Shown: one piece after another, positions 7,068-50,156 of the stretch | Layout: each line of letters opens with the position of its first letter | How positions within the stretch are numbered: position 1 is the first letter of the stretch | Source of the DNA: Nothopassalora personata | Lineage: Eukaryota; Ascomycota; Dothideomycetes; Mycosphaerellales; Mycosphaerellaceae | Length of the DNA stretch: 64,000 nucleotides | NCBI GenBank assembly: GCA_033816765.1 | Contig: CM066292.1 | Location: forward strand, 372,001 to 436,000 | Direction of reading: 5' to 3' | Notes under the pieces: model-generated | Seen by the model: only the letters and a program-made list of their open reading frames with translations | Told to the model about the DNA's origin: nothing | Database searches by the model: none | Position numbers and translations under genes: made by a program

Positions 7068-7141
7068 GGCTAGGTAGCTTAGTAGTAGAGCGTAAGCTAT
7101 CTATACTCTTAAGGTCGTAGGTTCGATTCCTACCCTAGTCG
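7068..7141 (+). tRNA. tRNA-like sequence, probable pseudogene
   Basis: A 74-nt cloverleaf-like sequence. The acceptor stem GGCTAGG/CCTAGTC has 7 bp with one G-U. The D stem is GCTT/GAGC. The T arm is perfect (GTAGG-TTCGATT-CCTAC) and its B box GGTTCGATTCC fits the consensus; an A-box-like TAGCTTAGTAGTAG sits at about 7075. The anticodon arm is irregular: TAAGC/TCTTA leaves a 9-nt loop with one mismatched pair, so no anticodon can be assigned. It lies between the accessory ORF and pol of a RIPed gypsy-A copy and may be a captured tRNA or an old SINE head. Confidence 0.4.
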
Positions 7142-7199
7142 CTCGTTAGCCGAGAGATCGATTGTCGTTAGTTATATCGGCGGACCTATTTTTAGTATT

Positions 7200-8999: not shown

Positions 9000-10360
9000 T
9001 ACTTGAAGCGTACTATAGAGGATAGTACTATACTCTAGAGTATAGAGGCGCTAGCTACTAGTAACGTATACGTATATCCGTAGAATTTTAGGCTTAATAA
9101 CCCGAGAAAGTTAACGAATAGTAGAAGCCTATAGTAGGATGTAGCGCTAGCCTCGGTTAATAAAGGCATAAATTTAAAATTTATAGTCTATTAAGACTTA
9201 CGACGGTAGTCGTAGCGATAATAGCCGGAGGCTACTAGTAAGTCTAATTGTCGTCGGGTAATGAGAGTAATATTAGTACGTAGTACACTACTAATACTCG
9301 TGTTACTATTAGTAATAATCTACTTCGTTACGTTACCGCTAAAGGGGAGGCCGTAAAAGGGCAATAGTAGATTAGTATTAAAGACACTACGAGTACCGCT
9401 ACGAAGCTACCGTTACAATAGGAATTTATAAAGTCTAATCTATTTCTAGTACTTATATACTATTAATAGTATATATATCTCGAAGCGTATTAGCGGTAAC
9501 GAGCTAGCTTATACTAATAGGAGAGTAACAGTCGAGATACTATATATAATGCTCTTAGATATTTAGGCCTTATTAATCTTATTAATCTAGATCTTATATC
9601 TATGCTTATACTACCGAGGTTAGTCTCCCTAGACGGTCTCCCTAGTACGTCTTTAACGACGTAACATCCCTATTCCCCCTAACTAGTATAGTAATACCGA
9701 TAGGGCCTAGAGAGTTAGTACTTAACGAGCTGTTTATATTACTTAAGACGCTCGATAGTACTAGAGAGTACATGTATTAGACGATGTAAACAATTAAGCA
9801 TCGTACGGAAAATTAATAGGGAAGAGTATAAGTAATATAGCGTCGGCGGCGAGGGTAACGGACAAGACCGGGTAGTATAGCGCGTAGCTTATACCGCGAA
9901 GGTAAAGTAGCGTATATTTAATTAATTGATCCATTTACGTACTATGTAAGTCTAAGACTATATAACACGGGTAGGGTACCCTACTATTTTCTAGTTAGTA
10001 GAGGAAAAGCTTTTCGGTAATAAAAACCTCTAAAAGTAAGTATAGTTCCTTTCTCGCGATATTATAGAGGCCTTCTCGCCTTACGGGACCCGGTGGTTTT
10101 CCCGTACTCCTTTTACGCCGTAAAACCTAAAATACACTAAGAAAAATAGCCGTAGAGGCTAAGGGCTAGGCCCTATATGTTAAAAGAGCGATAAAATTCA
10201 CTCGTTCTACTTCAGACGTCCCGCGTTACGTAATTTAGAGCTAAGCCCTTATTCCTATTATATTGTTCGGTAGTAGAGTTTTAAAATAAGCTACTAAACG
10301 TCTAAGTTAGGTAACTACCCGTCTCGTAATCTAGCGCTAAGTCTTATTTATCGCTAGTAA
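9000..10360. other. RIP-degraded DNA, unassigned
   Basis: Strong RIP composition throughout. No reading frame or conserved motif could be identified. It lies between the broken end of a gypsy-A pol copy and a hexamer repeat next to the LINE, so part of it may be the 3' untranslated region of that LINE. Confidence 0.5.
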
Positions 10361-10393
10361 TAGCGTTAGCGTTAGCGTTAGCGTTAGCGTTAG
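10361..10393. repeat. (TAGCGT)n microsatellite
   Basis: About five and a half perfect units of TAGCGT. On the minus strand it reads (ACGCTA)n and lies on the 3' side of the minus-strand LINE. It could be the simple-repeat tail that many non-LTR retrotransposons carry, or a chance microsatellite. It resembles but is not the TTAGGG telomere repeat. Confidence 0.7.
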
Positions 10394-10399
10394 GCTTAC

Positions 10400-13300
10400 G
10401 TAATTACTACCGTTAGGCGGTAATAACTTATTCTCTAGACGTCCTATAGGAAATAGTAGACTAGATCTAGAATTCTCGCGTAAAGGCGTATAAAATGAGC
10501 CTAGGAACTTGCTAATTAGGCCTAGTTTAAAATTTTGTTAGGGTTGCCCCTAGATCTAGGGACTTAGGATACTTTCGAAGGTCTAAGCTAGTATAGCTAT
10601 TCGACCTCTTCAAGTTTACTCCTTCCTACTCGGTACTACCTTCGTGTAGTAATACCTATAGTACGGATATAGTCTATTACCTCTTATTATCCTTTAATAG
10701 ATAGGAAAAGAATATAGAAGGTCGCTACCCTTATTTTTCTAGTCCTAACCTCGGTATATAGGTAACATCCTTAAAGGAGGTAGATTAGAGTCTCTTTCTA
10801 GCCGTAGTGGCATCTATCGTCGTCTATTTTATAAAACCGGTATAGGTAGTTACGAAAGAAACCGTATCCTAGACGTAGAGAGTAGTAGGCGCTCGAGATA
10901 GTCCTCTTATATTATATTTGTAGCGGGAGGTACTCTTTATATTAAAAACGAGAGAAGTAGCTATTCGAGCCGTGTTCCTTTTTAGCCTTTACCTTATTAA
11001 AACGGTCTCTATGGCCTTAACTACTAGGTCGGTAAGGTATTCTTTATTAGTTATACGAAGTAACTTAAAGGTCTCTAGTCTTCTTTAGATTCCTTAGAGC
11101 TTTAAGCCTCCTTTAGGCGGTAAGAGCTTATAACCTGTCTCTATTACCCTTTTTATAACTATGGGGATCGTACTACTTAGGACCTTAGCGATCGGGTTAT
11201 CTTCGGGAAGCTTCTTTAGCCTTAGGCTATACTTTAGGACCTAGCGTTCTAGATAAATTTAAGGGGTAAGGAGGTCTACTTCTCTCTCGGTAGGCTCGGT
11301 AGGGGTAGTACGGAAGATCCCTAGGACTTTTTAAATACCTTTCCTATATATAGCCTCTAAGGGGGTAATAGTTCTCCTATATTTCTACTAAATTGGCGCT
11401 CCGTAGTTAGCTACGGTAGTAACGTACAATAGGTATAGTATACGTAGGGAACAAATACTTAACCTTTTCCCTATATTTACTAGGCGGTTTATTCTATAGA
11501 GGGAGGTAAGTACCTTAGTTACTCGGATTTCAATATATTCTTTAAAGGTAAGATAAGTATTAAACTAGATCCCTAGCTATTATACGGCTTTTATTGCGGC
11601 TTTAATAAAATCTCCGCTTAGTAGGGTTATAGAACTATTGTATCCTTTACCTTTTATAAAGTATAGGAGCTCGGTTTTAGCGAGATCAAATTCTATCGCT
11701 TACTTAGTACCTTTCTTCGTTAAGAGATTAACCTCTTTCTCGAGGATCTTTACGTTCTTCTTAAGGCTAGCTAAGGCTACTAGTAGCCTAATATCGTCGA
11801 TATAGGATAATGGAGTTACGGCCTTAATGTCCGTAAATAGGTCCCTTATATATATAAGAAATGAAATTAGCGAGATTAGACTACCTTACGGTACGTAGGT
11901 CTTTACGTTCGTAGTATCTTCTTCTTATCCGTTAAAGGATAGTTAAATCCTCCGTTCTTCTAGGAAGGACTTAGTCTACCTTATAACTAAGTAGGAGAGT
12001 CGTAGCTTAATTAGTGTTCTTAGGAGACGCTTCTTTACTACGTAGTTAGAGGCTCCTTTAACTTCTAGAAAGGCTATACTAATTTTCTTCCCTTTAGCTC
12101 GGTTCCTTTCGACAAAAATTAGTAAGGAGGAGGGCTATAGCTACGGCTAAACGTTTTGTTCTACCGCCTATTTACGAGTCGTAAAGTAGCGAGCCGGTAT
12201 TAGCTAGAATACCTAGTCTTTTAACTAGTATTCTCTCGCTTACTTTCCCTAGGTAGTTAAGAAGCGCTATTATCCTATATACCTTAGGAATCGAGTAGTT
12301 AGGTTTCCCCGGCTTTACTATAGTAAATCTAGTCGCTACTTGCTAGTACTTAGGATAGTACCCTTTGTTTAATAGCGAGCCGGAAATCTTAAGAAAGGCG
12401 TCCGGGATAGCTTAAAATATGCGTTAAATTATAGCTTATATTATACCGTCCGGGCCTAGGGTTTTACCTTTTACTTTCGAGGAACTATAAGCCGATTAAA
12501 GTTCTTCTAGTTAGATTAGGTCCTAATTCTAGTTCCCTATAGGATACTTATCCTACGAGGGGTCTAGGGGAGTATCCGGAGGTAGTAAAGGGAATAGCGC
12601 GCCCCGAAGGGCCTTGCATTTTCCCTTACATGTGTCCTATCTATTTATAGTCGGGATTAGACTATTCCCTCCTACTTTTATATAGGAGAAGGCCTTATAG
12701 ACCGACGTAAGATCGGTCTTTTTAAGAAACTTATTCTAATAGTCTCGTTTAGCGGGTTTAATACTAAGGAAGTATTTATTCCTTACGACTAAGTACGCTA
12801 CTTTATCTATACGTATAGTAGATACTATAGTACTAGTAATCTTTCTACGTACGCGAGACTGTTATTTTCTAAGTTCTTTTAGTTCCGGCGTCTACTACGG
12901 TTTAGACTTAGCTACTACCCTAAGTTGAGGGATGTATAGTTTAGCCGTAGTAGATATAATGTCGGAAAAGGTACTTACTAGTAGGTCTAGGTCTTCTATA
13001 CCTTCGAGATCTACTTTACGATCCTTTAGTACTCGTGAGAAACCTTTCTAATCTACTTTAGACGTATTAAAACGTAGTCTATTACTAGGAGGGGATAGGG
13101 GTAGAGAGGAGGTCTTACTCCCTCTAATATCTAGAGAGATCGCTAAGTAGTTAGATCCGGTCTCTAGCGTACGCTAGTTCATTTCCGAGCTTAAAGACCT
13201 TCCTTTTATAAAGGTAAGGTCTAATACGCTCGGGTTATTTAGGTATACTTAGTAAAAGGTTCCTATATTTAGAGTATTATATAGAGAGAAGTTATTTACT

Positions 13301-15095
13301 TTAATCTAGTTAATAAAGGCTTTAGTTCTAGAGCTATTATCCTTCCCGTAAGGATCCTAAGACGGGTGTCTTATATTAAAGTCGCCGAGTAGTACTATAT
13401 TTGTCGCTAGTGTAAAATAGTATAGGGCTCTTTCGTTTATCTAGGTATTCTTACTATCTTTTTTATTATAGATATTAAGAATTTAGATCGAATTACCCTT
13501 CTTATCTTTCGTAAATATTACCTTAAAATCCAAGTCCCTATTTTAAACCGGAGTTATTTCGACTTGAATTTATCTACTAATATAGAAGAGGGTACGATTC
13601 CTTACTATACTAGTCGGTAGTATAGTCGTAAAGGCTAGGTAAGCTATAGATGTTCTTAGATTATTTTCTTTATCTATTAAAAACTATAGCTCTTAGATTA
13701 CTAGTATATTAGCCTTTTCGCGGATTGCTAATTCGAGTATAGACTTAGTAGCTACTACGCTCTAGTTTAGGTTTACTTAGAAGATACGTAAAGGTGTAAC
13801 TAGTATCCGGAAAAGCCTAGTTTCTCCTTTTGTTTTTTCTCTCTCTCTTCTCTCGATAGTACTTTTTATATCCTTAGGTACTTTACGCTAATCTAAAGGC
13901 TATATTTCTTTACTCTAGTAGCTTCTTTACTTATTTTAAATGTAAGTAGTATCGATCCCTACGTTTAGGAGAGTCCGTACTCCTCGCTAGTTATCTAAAG
14001 GGGGGTATTTATAAGTTTAAAGCCTTTATTAAAGGCTATAAGTTTAGTAGCGACCTTTTATAAACCGTCCTCCTTAAAGGTAATAGAGTCAATACCGTAT
14101 ACGACTACTTTATACTAAGACTTGTTCTCGAGGACTTAGAGGACGGAGATAATTGTCTTAAGGATAGTGAAGTTCTTCTTAAGTATTTCCTTTACTTTCT
14201 CGTCCCGTAGCGTAAGGATAAGATTCCCCTTTTCCGAGAGGCAAGTTCTGAGAAGGATTAGGTATTTCGAGTATAGGTTAGCTTCTTTAAAAGTACGGTT
14301 AACCGCGTTACGGGTAGCGATTATGTCGAGAGTAGTACTACTATTATTTTCTATCCCGAGGATAATTTAGCTATACCTACCTTTAGTAGAGGCTTTACGG
14401 TTCTTAGATTTAGTTCTTTCGGTTGTATTCTAGCCCTTCTTAGGCTAGCAGGGGGTTAGCGTCGATCGGGGGAAAGTTTAGTACGGTACCGTAGTTTAGG
14501 TCTAGATAGTAGGGTTATCCCCGGAGAGGATACTTACGAAAGTTAGTTTTTACCCCTTTTAAGTACTTATAACTATAGGATCGTCCCTACTATTAACTAG
14601 CTTAGTAAGCTTAGTAACGGACTCCTCTAGGGCGTAAACCTACTTTTCGATCTTTACTATCGCTATCGGGAGTGCCTTATCTTAATAGAAGGCCCTAAAT
14701 AGGCCTAGAGGTTTAAGGATCTTATCCTACCTCTTTTAGTCTCCTCTCGCTAGAGGAGCGGCGTTAATAACTAGTTCGTAGGCTATAGTAGGCTTTACTA
14801 AGCTTAGATTTTTCCTCTAGGGCGTCGGATTAGGACGTTCGTACTACTTTATAGCGCTTTAGCGGCGACGTATCTAATACGGTCTCGATAAAGGGGTTAG
14901 GCCTTTTTACGCTAATAAAGGGGATGAATTTCCTTTATATAATCTTATTCGCTTCGTTCGTATTAATAAAGATGCTCGAAGGTTACTAAGTTAGCGTAGA
15001 AGGGCCGGAGAGTTAGTCTTTATCCCCTAAGAGATTAAAGATAGACTCTTCGTCTATTCCGTCTATTTTTAGTAGCAATTTAGTATAGAAAAGAG
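10400..15095 (-). pseudogene. LINE (Tad-like non-LTR retrotransposon), RIP-degraded
   Basis: On the minus strand an ORF1-like segment comes first (about 15090-13960). An apurinic-type endonuclease follows, with GDFN at complement(13375-13386) in the context LLGDFNIRHPSW. Then comes a reverse transcriptase with GKTLGPDGI near 12470, KPGKPNYS near 12310 and YIDD at complement(11793-11804), preceded by SLISLISFLIYIRDL. Sequence that could be an RNase H and 3' UTR continues to about 10400. Stops at Trp/Gln codons show RIP. Architecture and motifs fit the Tad1 clade of ascomycete LINEs. Both outer borders are approximate; I could not find a target-site duplication. Confidence 0.75.
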
Positions 15096-27080: not shown

Positions 27081-27460
27081 TATTACGGATTAGATAGAAG
27101 CTACGACGGTAGATATAGTCGTTAGGTAAAACGGATTACGTGCGCCGTACGAGATTACTCGCTTACTAGTAACTTAGTAATTTAAGATTACTCGTTACTA
27201 GTAACTTAGTAATTTAGAAGTTATAGACTAAGAATCTCCTTTATATTTAGGAACGCTAAAAACCCTTATAGCTTAGAAGCGTTTAACTTACTGTTTAATC
27301 TTACTATTTAGAATATAGCCTTACCTAAACCGCTACCTCGCTACTACTTTATACTACTCTCCCTCCTATTCCTACTTAACGAGAACAAATCTCGATCGAA
27401 CGAAGGTTATCTAACTCGTTAGTTAACTTAGTAAGATTATAGGTTATACTAAACCTAATA
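27081..27460 (+). mobile_element. Gypsy-A LTR, plus orientation
   Basis: 380 bp from TATTACGG (RIPed TGTTACGG) to AAACCTAATA, containing the shared block ctcctttatatttaggaacg. It sits where the 3' LTR of the 15.1-27.0 kb copy is expected. It is followed by a leader-like sequence (gctttaaacgccc, 27461 on) resembling that after the 5' LTR at 3871. It may therefore be shared by two head-to-tail elements. Flanking 5-mers (gatag, gcttt) are not duplicates. Confidence 0.7.
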
Positions 27461-31402: not shown

Positions 31403-32172
31403 TTGATTGATTGATTGATTATTCCATTAACGTGCTATTTGAGTCAAAGACTATGCAACACGGGTCTCGAGAACGAGACCAAAATTTGAGAGAAGGAGAA
31501 AAGCCCCGTCGTACCCCGGACGTAAAAACTCCTTAAAAGATGCGAGCAACGCTCGCTATTCGAACCGTAAATCGAATATATTGCGGCGTAGTACGCGCGT
31601 ACCCGGTAGTCGTGTCTTGTCGAGAATTGCGGTTTGTCGCCTTGCCCCGGGCGAGACAAGTTTTGCGCCCGTGTCTCGTTCTTGTTTTAAAAAGCCAAGC
31701 CGGCCGTACCCGTACGCACCGAGCAAAATCCCAAGAAACACCCGTTGCCTCTGTTTCAAATCCAGTCGCGTTCTCCGGTCTCGAGTGTAGCTCCTCGGTC
31801 GCAGTGGCCTCGCTGTCGTCCCCCCCTCGGCCTCTCTTGGTTCCAGCCGTGCAGTATACGTGGTTTGCGCCCCTAAACGCCTCTCTTGGTTCCAGCCGGC
31901 AGTTTACGTGGTTTGCCGGGACGACAGGTAGACAGCGCCTTCGTTGTTCGAGCGACGTGTACGCTATGTACGTCGCTTTCCCTTCTCGCAGTTCCGGAGT
32001 TCTTGTTTGTAGATTTTGAGCGTATCTCGTTCGTTCGGTTCGTCCGACCTGTCTTTTCTTGTTTCGAGTCGAGTAGGCTTGTATTTTTCGAGAGAGAGAG
32101 TCTTAGTTTCTCTTCGTCGTAACGAAGATACTTACGTCGTCCGCCGCGTGAAGGCGCTCTCTATAGGACGAC
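31403..32172 (-). mobile_element. Short non-autonomous retroelement, copy A
   Basis: 770 bp, minus orientation. The 5' end gtcgtcctatag is at 32172 and the (ATCA)n tail at 31403. Base composition is ordinary and un-RIPed. It differs from copies B and C only by homopolymer indels and one extra tail unit. Internal landmarks are a 5' ribozyme-like fold, a ~48-bp internal tandem duplication around the aaaccacgta motif, and a 7-bp stem-loop (GGTCTCG/CGAGACC) about 60-75 nt from the tail. Overlapping frames of up to 159 codons shift between copies because of indels, so coding is unlikely. It is inserted in gypsy-C between 14-bp duplications and is presumably mobilised in trans by a LINE that is not identified here. 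Confidence 0.85.
32095..32172 (-). ncRNA. HDV-like self-cleaving ribozyme, copy A (predicted)
   Basis: Element nucleotides 1-78, identical to copies B and C. P1 is 1-7/31-37, P3 is 18-20/28-30, P4 is 45-51/56-62 with a TACG loop, and P2 is 11-16/73-78. The candidate catalytic C is 67 in CTAA. Cleavage would fall exactly before element nucleotide 1 (window position 32172, minus strand). Confidence 0.65.
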
Positions 32173-38630: not shown

Positions 38631-38708
38631 GTCGTCCTATAGAGAGCGCCTTCACGCGGCGGACGACGTAAGTATCTTCGTTACGACGAAGAGAAACTAA
38701 GACTCTCT
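38631..38708 (+). ncRNA. HDV-like self-cleaving ribozyme, copy B (predicted)
   Basis: The first 78 nt of the element, identical in sequence to copies A and C, with the fold described for copy C. The 5' G at 38631 is the predicted first nucleotide after cleavage. Confidence 0.65.
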
Positions 38709-39395
38709 CTCTCGAAAAATACAAGCCTACTCGACTCGAAACAAGAAAAGACAGGTCGGACGAACCGAACGAACGAGATACGCTCAAAATCTACAAACAA
38801 GAACTCCGGAACTGCGAGAAGGGAAAGCGACGTACATAGCGTACACGTCGCTCGAACAACGAAGGCGCTGTCTACCTGTCGTCCCGGCAAACCACGTAAA
38901 CTGCCGGCTGGAACCAAGAGAGGCGTTTAGGGGCGCAAACCACGTATACTGCACGGCTGGAACCAAGAGAGGCCGAGGGGGGGACGACAGCGAGGCCACT
39001 GCGACCGAGGAGCTACACTCGAGACCGGAGAACGCGACTGGATTGAAACAGAGGCAACGGGTGTTTCTTGGGATTTTGCTCGGTGCGTACGGGTACGGCC
39101 GGCTTGGCTTTTTAAAACAAGAACGAGACACGGGCGCAAAACTTGTCTCGCCCGGGGCAAGGCGACAAACCGCAATTCTCGACAAGACACGACTACCGGG
39201 TACGCGCGTACTACGCCGCAATATATTCGATTTACGGTTCGAATAGCGAGCGTTGCTCGCATCTTTTAAGGAGTTTTTACGTCCGGGGTACGACGGGGCT
39301 TTTCTCCTTCTCTCAAATTTTGGTCTCGTTCTCGAGACCCGTGTTGCATAGTCTTTGACTCAAATAGCACGTTAATGGAATAATCAATCAATCAA
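38631..39395 (+). mobile_element. Short non-autonomous retroelement, copy B
   Basis: 765 bp, plus orientation, from gtcgtcctatag to the tail aatcaatcaatcaa. It is near-identical to copies A and C and un-RIPed within heavily RIPed DNA, so the insertion is young relative to the mutation of its surroundings. It has the same 5' fold, internal ~48-bp duplication and 3' stem-loop. Copies A and B lie in opposite orientation about 6.5 kb apart. Their different target duplications show two independent insertions, not the ends of one large element. Confidence 0.85.
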
Positions 39396-40292: not shown

Positions 40293-40485
40293 TGTCACAA
40301 GCAGGTGCAAGCACGTGGTCGGATAAGGTACAAGTCGAATAGATAGCTATCTAAGAGAGGCGCGGAGAGCGCGAGATACTTAAGGGAGCGCCAAGCCGAT
40401 TAGTCAGCGGCTTAGTCAGCGGCGCGCTTGTGGTGCCCACGCACGTGCGCGCGGATCGAGGTGAATGGGCGCCGGTACGGTGACA
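40293..40485 (-). mobile_element. Chromovirus 3' LTR
   Basis: 193 bp with ends TGTCA...TGACA on either strand, identical to 47639-47831. It contains the duplicated motif ttagtcagcggc. The last ~70 nt of the pol reading frame extend into this LTR (stop at 40416). Confidence 0.92.
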
Positions 40486-47638: not shown

Positions 47639-47831
47639 TGTCACAAGCAGGTGCAAGCACGTGGTCGGATAAGGTACAAGTCGAATAGATAGCTATCTAA
47701 GAGAGGCGCGGAGAGCGCGAGATACTTAAGGGAGCGCCAAGCCGATTAGTCAGCGGCTTAGTCAGCGGCGCGCTTGTGGTGCCCACGCACGTGCGCGCGG
47801 ATCGAGGTGAATGGGCGCCGGTACGGTGACA
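47639..47831 (-). mobile_element. Chromovirus 5' LTR
   Basis: 193 bp, identical to the 3' LTR. As promoter it holds a TATA-like TTAAGTAT at complement(47722-47729), 32-39 nt upstream of the inferred RNA start at 47690, and the repeated ttagtcagcggc motif in U3. Confidence 0.92.
47722..47729 (-). promoter_or_regulatory. TATA-like box of the chromovirus
   Basis: TTAAGTAT on the minus strand, 32-39 nt before the position where the self-priming model puts the RNA 5' end. Spacing is right for a TATA element; the call depends on that model. Confidence 0.45.
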
Positions 47832-49361: not shown

Positions 49362-49375
49362 TTTCGAAGATTTCC
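49362..49375. repeat. Target-site duplication, short retroelement copy C (left)
   Basis: tttcgaagatttcc, repeated exactly at 50143-50156. Confidence 0.88.
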
Positions 49376-49453
49376 GTCGTCCTATAGAGAGCGCCTTCAC
49401 GCGGCGGACGACGTAAGTATCTTCGTTACGACGAAGAGAAACTAAGACTCTCT
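49376..49453 (+). ncRNA. HDV-like self-cleaving ribozyme, copy C (predicted)
   Basis: Numbering from the element's first base: P1 GTCGTCC (1-7) pairs with GGACGAC (31-37); P3 GCC (18-20) pairs with GGC (28-30), closing the 7-nt loop UUCACGC. That loop keeps the U-n-C-n-C-G-C pattern of the delta ribozyme L3, and C23 can pair with G38 (P1.1). A 7-nt linker (38-44) precedes P4 UCUUCGU/ACGAAGA (45-51/56-62) with loop UACG. J4/2 holds CUAA with candidate catalytic C67. P2 AGAGAG (11-16) pairs with CUCUCU (73-78). The lengths of P1, its position 31-37 and the linker equal those of the genomic delta ribozyme. Self-cleavage would leave exactly the observed 5' end. Confidence 0.7.
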
Positions 49454-50142
49454 CTCTCGAAAAATACAAGCCTACTCGACTCGAAACAAGAAAAGACAGG
49501 TCGGACGAACCGAACGAACGAGATACGCTCAAAATCTACAAACAAGAACTCCGGAACTGCGAGAAGGGAAAGCGACGTACATAGCGTACACGTCGCTCGA
49601 ACAACGAAGGCGCTGTCTACCTGTCGTCCCGGCAAACCACGTAAACTGCCGGCTGGAACCAAGAGAGGCGTTTAGGGGCGCAAACCACGTATACTGCACG
49701 GCTGGAACCAAGAGAGGCCGAGGGGGGGGACGACAGCGAGGCCACTGCGACCGAGGAGCTACACTCGAGACCGGAGAACGCGACTGGATTGAAACAGAGG
49801 CAACGGGTGTTTCTTGGGATTTTGCTCGGTGCGTACGGGTACGGCCGGCTTGGCTTTTTAAAAACAAGAACGAGACACGGGCGCAAAACTTGTCTCGCCC
49901 GGGGCAAGGCGACAAACCGCAATTCTCGACAAGACACGACTACCGGGTACGCGCGTACTACGCCGCAATATATTCGATTTACGGTTCGAATAGCGAGCGT
50001 TGCTCGCATCTTTTAAGGAGTTTTTACGTCCGGGGTACGACGGGGCTTTTCTCCTTCTCTCAAATTTTGGTCTCGTTCTCGAGACCCGTGTTGCATAGTC
50101 TTTGACTCAAATAGCACGTTAATGGAATAATCAATCAATCAA
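49376..50142 (+). mobile_element. Short non-autonomous retroelement, copy C
   Basis: 767 bp, plus orientation, gtcgtcctatag...aatcaatcaatcaa, between 14-bp duplications in copia gag. The internal tandem duplication has a period of 48 bp, with gcaaaccacgta at 49632 and 49680. A 3' stem-loop GGTCTCG-TTCT-CGAGACC lies at 50069-50086. No conserved ORF: the frames seen in copies A, B and C differ at their ends because of 1-bp homopolymer indels. Sequence identity with A and B is near complete. It is longer than most SINEs and has no clear A/B-box pair at its head. Confidence 0.87.
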
Positions 50143-50156
50143 TTTCGAAGATTTCC
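50143..50156. repeat. Target-site duplication, short retroelement copy C (right)
   Basis: A second copy of tttcgaagatttcc; the copia gag frame resumes here. Confidence 0.88.

Follow-up and report, generated by a model that had tools for sequence, protein, structure and literature searches.

A predicted HDV-like ribozyme at the 5′ end of a dispersed, probably non-coding fungal retroelement with a LINE-shared 3′ end

The window, by which we mean the whole 64-kb stretch of fungal DNA analysed here, carries three copies of a short retroelement that is apparently non-coding and present in hundreds of copies in its genome. We propose, with a probability of roughly 0.86, that this element combines a predicted HDV-like head with a 3′ end shared with a LINE, likely excises itself from transcripts and is probably inserted by the LINE machinery. 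Its nature as a retroelement, suggested in an earlier note on this DNA, is borne out by target site duplications (TSDs), 5′ truncations and a LINE-type 3′ tail in the copies examined genome-wide and in a second family. The fold and the match between the predicted cut and the first base of the element hold in the same two sets.

Element copies in the window

The genome from which the window derives spans 54.5 Mb in 40 contigs. Three near-identical copies of the element lie in the window (Table 1), each ~765 nt long and with pairwise identities of 99.6–100%. GTCGTCC opens every copy and a (CAAT)n-type tail closes it; the 3′ ends are placed to within ~1 base, the letters of tail and TSD overlapping. 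The TSD of 11–14 bp stops one base ahead of the first G, which is the base of the predicted cut, in agreement with the earlier note, where the cut had been put at the element boundary in all three copies. RIP-type decay is strong around the element, with a (CpA+TpG)/(ApC+GpT) ratio of 0.11–0.33 in 12 of 16 4-kb blocks; the same ratio within the element is 0.58. Since the only ATG open reading frame of at least 30 aa that overlaps copy 3 is an antisense frame of 130 aa, the element is probably non-coding. Its body contains two near-repeats of ~40 nt, GCAAACCACGTA...CTGGAACCAAGAGAGGC, at window positions 49634–49720.

Table 1. Features of the element, its predicted ribozyme and related sequences (positions in the window unless genomic loci are named)
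Feature	Position	Strand	Remarks
Element copy 1	31403–32172	−	first base 32172, with the predicted ribozyme there; TSD TTAAGGATCTCGAG, 14 nt
Element copy 2	38631–39394	+	predicted ribozyme at first base; TSD ACTACTACGTA, 11 nt
Element copy 3, full-length, non-autonomous	49376–50142	+	from predicted ribozyme head to (CAAT)n tail
TSD of copy 3	49362–49375 (5′), again 50143–50156	+	TTTCGAAGATTTCC, 14 nt
Predicted HDV-like ribozyme	49376–49453	+	from sequence, descriptor and pair counts; predicted cleavage 5′ of G49376
P1 5′ strand GTCGTCC	49376–49382	+	7 bp with 49406–49412
P2 5′ strand AGAGAG	49386–49391	+	pairs with 49448–49453
P3 GCC/GGC	49393–49395 / 49403–49405	+	3 bp; L3 is TTCACGC, 7 nt, 49396–49402
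P1 3′ strand GGACGAC	49406–49412	+	pairs with 49376–49382
P1.1, one possible pair	C49398–G49413	+	C–G, U–G or U–A in 33 of 33 rows
P4 hairpin, loop UACG	49420–49437	+	up to 7 bp, 49420–49426 / 49431–49437
J4/2 CUAA	49442–49445	+	C49442 is the predicted catalytic cytosine (C67); C in 32 of 33 rows
P2 3′ strand CTCTCT	49448–49453	+	pairs with 49386–49391
3′ hairpin GGTCTCG/CGAGACC	50069–50086	+	self-complementary
LINE-shared 3′ end and (CAAT)n tail, with hairpin	50069–50142	+	over the last 59 nt, 95% identity to the likely helper LINE
RIP-damaged relative of the likely helper LINE	9918–15058	−	79% identity to the LINE
LINE 5′ loci with TSD and copy-specific leader	L079, L083, L085, L089, L091, L129
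Family B heads	one in L076; L103/L125; L116/L123; L118/L124

Fold of the predicted ribozyme

All helices and loops that the earlier note had listed for the first 78 nt are present in the sequence. The features of the HDV-like class are found here, namely P1, P2, P3 and P4 in canonical order as a nested double pseudoknot, a P1 of ~7 bp opening at the predicted cleavage base, where G1 is the TSD boundary, a 3-bp P3, a short L3 with a U...CG core, and the predicted catalytic C in J4/2. A U...CG core in L3 is the pattern of delta-like ribozymes. The single P1.1 pair, which is C–G in rows of the young family and U–G or U–A in older rows, fits the one or two base pairs given for P1.1 of HDV-like ribozymes in a passage of PMC4908430. 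Directly 3′ of the P1 3′ strand, the main family carries GTAAGTAT, a strong-looking 5′ splice site (window 49413–49420), and the GTAAGT of this putative site is kept by most older copies.

A strict descriptor of the fold (7-bp P1 from a G, 3-bp P3, L3 of 7–8 nt with U.Y.CG, C-N-R-A in J4/2, and minimum lengths of 5 bp for P2 and 4 bp for P4), run over both strands of the 64-kb window, matched solely where the three copies begin. Sixty simulated 64-kb windows (second-order Markov) gave one match in total, a chance rate that is indicative since the descriptor was composed with the motif already known. Changing the catalytic C of the descriptor to G or T left no match in the window, and changing it to A retained the same three places because J4/2 is A-rich, which makes this control not clean. 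Pseudoknot-free minimum-free-energy (MFE) folding yielded P1, P3 and P4 at an ordinary energy (z −0.33) and RNAalifold over the relatives yielded P2, P3 and the inner P4 pairs, so that the two sets of helices together give the double pseudoknot.

Among Rfam families, HDV-F-prausnitzii (RF02682) was the only HDV family listed for the window copy, starting exactly at 49376. The match is weak (19.9 bits vs a gathering score of 44, E 0.41) and no better in E-value than that to an unrelated CRISPR-repeat model; the Rfam HDV scores overall (19.8–20.6 bits vs 44, E 0.3–0.46) are by themselves at chance level. Three of six older heads also matched from their first base, all of them from family A (see below), and none of three family B heads did. 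Of the descriptor or covariance search put forward in the earlier note, the descriptor part singled out the three copies, and the Rfam part stayed under the HDV gathering score. We did not take the Rfam cut-off as a defining feature of the class, since the class has just five conserved bases according to a passage of PMC4870747. Neither IMG/VR, queried with the 3′ tail and the LINE protein as well as the ribozyme, nor prokaryote genome contigs, queried with the ribozyme, gave a match, and records near the window's genome may be excluded from both. A weak match to the ribozyme model at window 27175–27242, in an AT-rich stretch (16.2 bits, E 0.03), is probably due to chance.

That an ordinary element end merely resembles a ribozyme by chance might be argued from the way in which the 78-nt motif was spotted, namely by eye, from the chance-level covariance-model scores and from the ordinary MFE. 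We consider such a coincidence extremely improbable, given one descriptor match per 60 simulated windows, the exact placement at TSD boundaries and the in-step helix changes in a second family.

A fixed 5′ boundary across the genome

An exact 29-nt head pattern occurs 271 times in the genome and an exact 32-nt tail pattern 301 times. A search with the 5′ end returned 377 candidates, of which 40 were scored and 30 cut out as copies, and these start, together with the three window copies, at the same G in 33 of 33 cases. Since searching with the 5′ end selects for copies that are intact there, the search was repeated with the 3′ end (365 candidates, 40 scored, 30 copies cut out): 23 of these copies begin at base 1, and the remaining seven are 5′-truncated, at bases 5, 353, 456, 470, 512, 519 and 576. 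Upstream of base 1 the sequence is unlike between the 3′-query copies, save for L051 and L052, which have flank and TSD in common and look like one duplicated insertion. Homologous copies extending upstream, which the earlier note had raised as possible counter-evidence, were in this set confined to that pair.

The two sets overlap and, merged by their 30-nt flanks, comprise 50 full-length copies. A TSD of 10–15 nt lies within one base of G1 in 43 of these copies distinct by flank, and seven have no clear TSD. The 30-nt 5′ flanks are all different (50 of 50), and the base preceding G1 is A in 25 copies, T in 14, C in 9 and G in 2.

A fixed transcription start would likewise give uniform 5′ ends, and it could be supposed that G1 is set by initiation from an internal promoter, with the pseudoknot serving, for example, in protection of the RNA 5′ end or in binding of the LINE protein. 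An HDV or HDV-like 5′ fold raises the efficiency of R2 template insertion according to a passage of PMC11331408, and trypanosomatid Pr77 is reported, in the part of PMC4035085 that concerns it, to be both promoter and ribozyme. This supposition leaves unexplained the catalytic layout (L3, the J4/2 C and P1 at the boundary base) across two families, and promoter, protection and binding roles fit alongside cleavage and not instead of it; we judge it unlikely as a substitute for self-cleavage at G1.

Three other element types were considered and rejected. A Pol III SINE would be expected to carry another head, and Rfam and ARAGORN scans found no tRNA-, 5S- or 7SL-derived head in the element, which also contains TTTTT runs. 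Such runs terminate Pol III. A retrozyme was set aside in view of the single HDV-like, not hammerhead, head of each window copy, and an rDNA-specific SIDE since the 50 full copies each have a different 5′ flank.

Older copies and a second family

A pattern for older copies, unlike the young family in J1/2/P2 and allowing C or T in L3, matched 30 places in the same genome, two of them within L076. The copies split in two, an older form of the main family (family A) and a second family (family B; Table 1). As the pattern fixes J1/2, the P2 5′ strand, P3 and L3, conservation in these parts holds by construction. Nine of the 30 copies (L097, L100, L109, L111, L112, L113, L115, L119 and L120) have a near-identical 25-nt 5′ flank and are probably one insertion multiplied inside a larger repeat; L101 and L121 likewise have a 5′ flank in common. 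In L076 a LINE fragment has a ribozyme head on either side, the family A head and the family B head pointing in opposite directions.

Six longer older copies were read, and a TSD was found in three (L125, L127 and L128), two of the three TSDs having one mismatch; for L123, L124 and L126 no clear TSD was found. The family A copies L127 and L128 start with GTCGTCC adjoining the TSD, and the family B copy L125 starts with GCCGTC, its TSD ending at the first G. The main family and two B copies align solely over the head (7–78 or 7–111) and over ~95–100 nt at the 3′ end. The 3′ end of family B is LINE-like over ~210 nt.

To the paired positions we applied an alignment, A1, of 33 distinct heads out of 35 distinct rows, leaving out L043 (5′-truncated) and L103 (six extra bases in J1/2). 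In A1 91.5% of 789 cells are paired, vs 37.5–59.9% when slid by 1–3 columns and 89.5% when shuffled (0 of 500 shuffles as high). The covariation score is 0.188 vs 0.047–0.103 slid and 0.147 shuffled (0/500), and 25 cells are changed on both sides vs 12.1 in the shuffles (0/500); two further measures did not exceed the shuffles (pairs changed on both sides, 82/500; pair types, 186/500).

Individual pairs change in step in three B rows: P1 pair 2/36 goes from U–A to C–G, and in P4 pair 47/62 goes from C–G to U–A and pair 48/61 from U–A to A–U. The changes in these rows are the telling ones, and the last swap cannot be produced by RIP (C to T). These in-step changes among relatives, all of them copies in the same genome, provide the kind of covariance support whose absence the earlier note had said would count against the fold. 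The outer P4 pair 46/63 is more variable over the 33 rows, being C–G in two B rows, U–A in 10 rows, U–G in 2 and unpaired in 19. P2 is paired in 100% of cells in the 33 distinct relatives, with its 5′ strand partly set by the search pattern, and P3 is paired in 100% of cells in A1, with columns mostly set by that pattern. The outer P2 pair is G–C in 23 rows, A–U in 5 and G–U in 5, the young-family rows having A–U.

L3 reads TTTACGC in 30 of 30 older copies, which weakens P1.1 to U–G or U–A. The step from TTCACGC to TTTACGC is a C-to-T change at CpA and hence one expected from RIP. At their start, the strict descriptor accepts 8 of 29 older rows and the loose one 15 of the 29, many older copies having broken P1 or P4 pairs; broken pairs are what RIP decay would be expected to cause in older copies, and degraded copies alone weigh little. 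Three of the four family B heads (L103, L116 and L118) match the strict descriptor from their first base.

The fold might also be a leftover, active as a ribozyme in an ancestor and kept by descent alone in a young family that is catalytically dead. The degraded older copies could be read in this way, and a single P1.1 pair and a low Rfam score would suit a weak enzyme. In the young family, however, all helices are intact, with a C–G P1.1 and CUAA in J4/2, the exact head pattern recurs at 271 places, and the outer P2 pair is A–U in its rows where 23 older rows have G–C; we therefore regard mere descent as very unlikely.

A likely helper LINE

The LINE endonuclease family PF14529 matched 18 places in the genome, and 11 of these (L062–L072) are near-identical copies of one LINE, 99.6–99.9% identical to L062 (L069 over 3166 of 3351 nt). 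A copy read from its contig measures 5438 nt between TSDs and has open frames of 431 and 1110 aa, the second of which (1110 aa) contains the EN and RT domains. This LINE may be Tad-like. The few named matches to LINE-related proteins are mostly fungal (Monilinia, Verticillium, Xylaria, Fusarium), with one labelled Thalictrum, a plant.

Because it encodes EN and RT domains and has its last 59 nt (95% identical) and its tail in common with the element, this LINE is, on sequence grounds, the likely helper. The tail pattern is found in six of eight LINE 3′ loci compared (L080, L084, L086, L090, L092 and L094) and also in L131, and is absent from the other two, L082 and L088. Upstream of the shared 3′ end lies a hairpin whose sequence varies and which is, judged by eye, self-complementary in the LINE, the main family, A128 and family B. 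The RIP-damaged relative of the LINE in the window has a degenerate version of the shared 3′ end at 9918–9972 (80% over 55 nt to the element), and no usable 5′ end or TSD was found for it. In the LINE copy at C5:5455000-5462600 (L082) the usual 3′ end is lost at a junction to other sequence, part of which is found again, inverted, in L132.

The 5′ ends of the LINE are ragged, with ~11–96 nt of copy-specific sequence between the TSD and the shared AGCGGCGG in six TSD-bearing loci (Table 1). Such leaders could stem from template jumps to other RNAs or from varied upstream starts; template jumps are reported for R2 5′ ends in a passage of PMC3414825. Immediately ahead of AGCGGCGG, CACCCTTATT occurs in five of eight loci (the six leader loci together with L081 and L130). 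A loose descriptor found no ribozyme match in six LINE 5′ loci, and model R1, which is family-tuned and hence a weak test for a distant ribozyme, found none in the same six loci or in L129 and L130. The idea that the element inherited its ribozyme from its LINE, as in L1Tc/NARTc, was dropped for the copies seen, there being no match to a ribozyme at the LINE 5′ ends examined.

Proposed life cycle

Based on these observations, we propose a cycle in which a copy would be transcribed within a longer RNA from an upstream promoter. The first 78 nt are predicted, from the fold, the pair changes and the boundary, to fold during synthesis and to cut before G1, which would leave a 5′-OH RNA beginning at base 1 regardless of the sequence upstream. 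The 59-nt 3′ end, the hairpin and the (CAAT)n tail shared with the LINE suggest that the EN–RT protein of the LINE would then grip the 3′ end of this RNA and carry out target-primed reverse transcription, giving either a complete copy to G1 or a 5′-truncated one. What is seen in the genome are full-length insertions from G1, mostly beside a 10–15 bp TSD, and shorter copies that are 5′-truncated.

Cutting would be cost-free to such an element, a cap being unnecessary for a non-coding RNA, and the ribozyme would cut the transcripts of a new copy again at any landing site. An internal promoter in the head, as reported for Pr77, would be compatible with this cleavage model. Beyond the single element, and at somewhat less than even odds, we would tentatively see here a fungal class of promoter-free short retroelements, in which a portable delta-like ribozyme, joined at least twice to different bodies, takes over from the promoter in fixing the 5′ end of a parasite of a ribozyme-less LINE with ragged 5′ ends. 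If promoter-free, such an element could obtain a full-length, uncapped template from any read-through transcript.

Relation to known ribozyme-bearing elements

Both the ribozyme class and the layout of a 5′ ribozyme joined to a 3′ end are known from the published passages cited here. The closest parallels are NARTc, RIME and SIDER of trypanosomatids, which are described in part of PMC4035085 as short non-autonomous non-LTR elements whose extreme 5′ end is formed by the ~77-nt Pr77 HDV-like ribozyme and which have a LINE as partner. NARTc and RIME are, according to the same source passages, truncated versions of LINEs (L1Tc/ingi) that have the same 5′ ribozyme, whereas the likely helper of the fungal element shares with it the 3′ end only and has no ribozyme in the ends examined, and the host is not a kinetoplastid. 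The R2 SIDEs and R2/R1 hybrid SIDEs of Drosophila have the same minimal layout, a 5′ HDV-like ribozyme with the 3′ end of an autonomous element, R2 or R1, the ribozyme and 3′ end of the hybrids being of different origin (passages of PMC3414825). These SIDEs are described as having a fixed 28S rDNA site and as using 28S co-transcripts; the fungal element, by contrast, is scattered over many different target sites.

Ribozymes of the LINEs R2, RTE, R4 and L1Tc likewise have their cleavage site at the 5′ terminus of a non-LTR element or close to it; these elements are autonomous and coding, unlike the fungal one (passages of PMC3774820). A delta-like ribozyme in a fungus also has a precedent, one of HDV-like type in a cold-tolerant species (Webb and Luptak 2011), which we compare through its citation in PMC3774820 only. 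The SINEs of Aspergillus fumigatus resemble the element as short TSD-bearing elements of an ascomycete; according to a passage of PMC5063351 they are tRNA-/5S-related, whereas the head of our element is a predicted ribozyme. Retrozymes, too, are non-autonomous retroelements with a self-cleaving ribozyme, but a passage of PMC4918200 describes them as having hammerhead ribozymes and circular RNAs.

In a passage of PMC8256844 animals, an insect virus and a bacterium are given as holders of HDV-like ribozymes and fungi are not mentioned there, and a literature search by titles, abstract starts and passages found no fungal ribozyme-headed retroelement. The view of the earlier note that this is not a described system needs narrowing, since both trypanosomatids and Drosophila have non-autonomous elements headed by a ribozyme (passages of PMC4035085, PMC3414825); it stands to the extent that no fungal one was found. 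Within the passages searched we did not find described a dispersed, high-copy life in a fungus, two families with a common head, or a likely helper without a detected ribozyme.

If true, the proposal would add a filamentous fungus, with non-coding elements that are dispersed and high in copy number, to the known range of ribozyme-processed retroelements. It would allow a comparison within one genome of ribozyme-headed elements with uniform 5′ ends and a likely helper LINE with variable 5′ ends, in which no ribozyme was found, and would bear on the way in which complete templates are obtained by non-autonomous elements that lack a Pol III promoter.

Other features of the window

Two identical direct repeats of 193 nt lie ~7.3 kb apart at window 40293–40485 and 47639–47831, in a region with a GC content of 0.53 and without the RIP signature, and probably delimit a young LTR retrotransposon. 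A tRNA-like gene with anticodon CTA at window 7068–7142, assigned to Pyl by ARAGORN and scored at 54.6 bits by Rfam, is possibly a RIP-altered tRNA.
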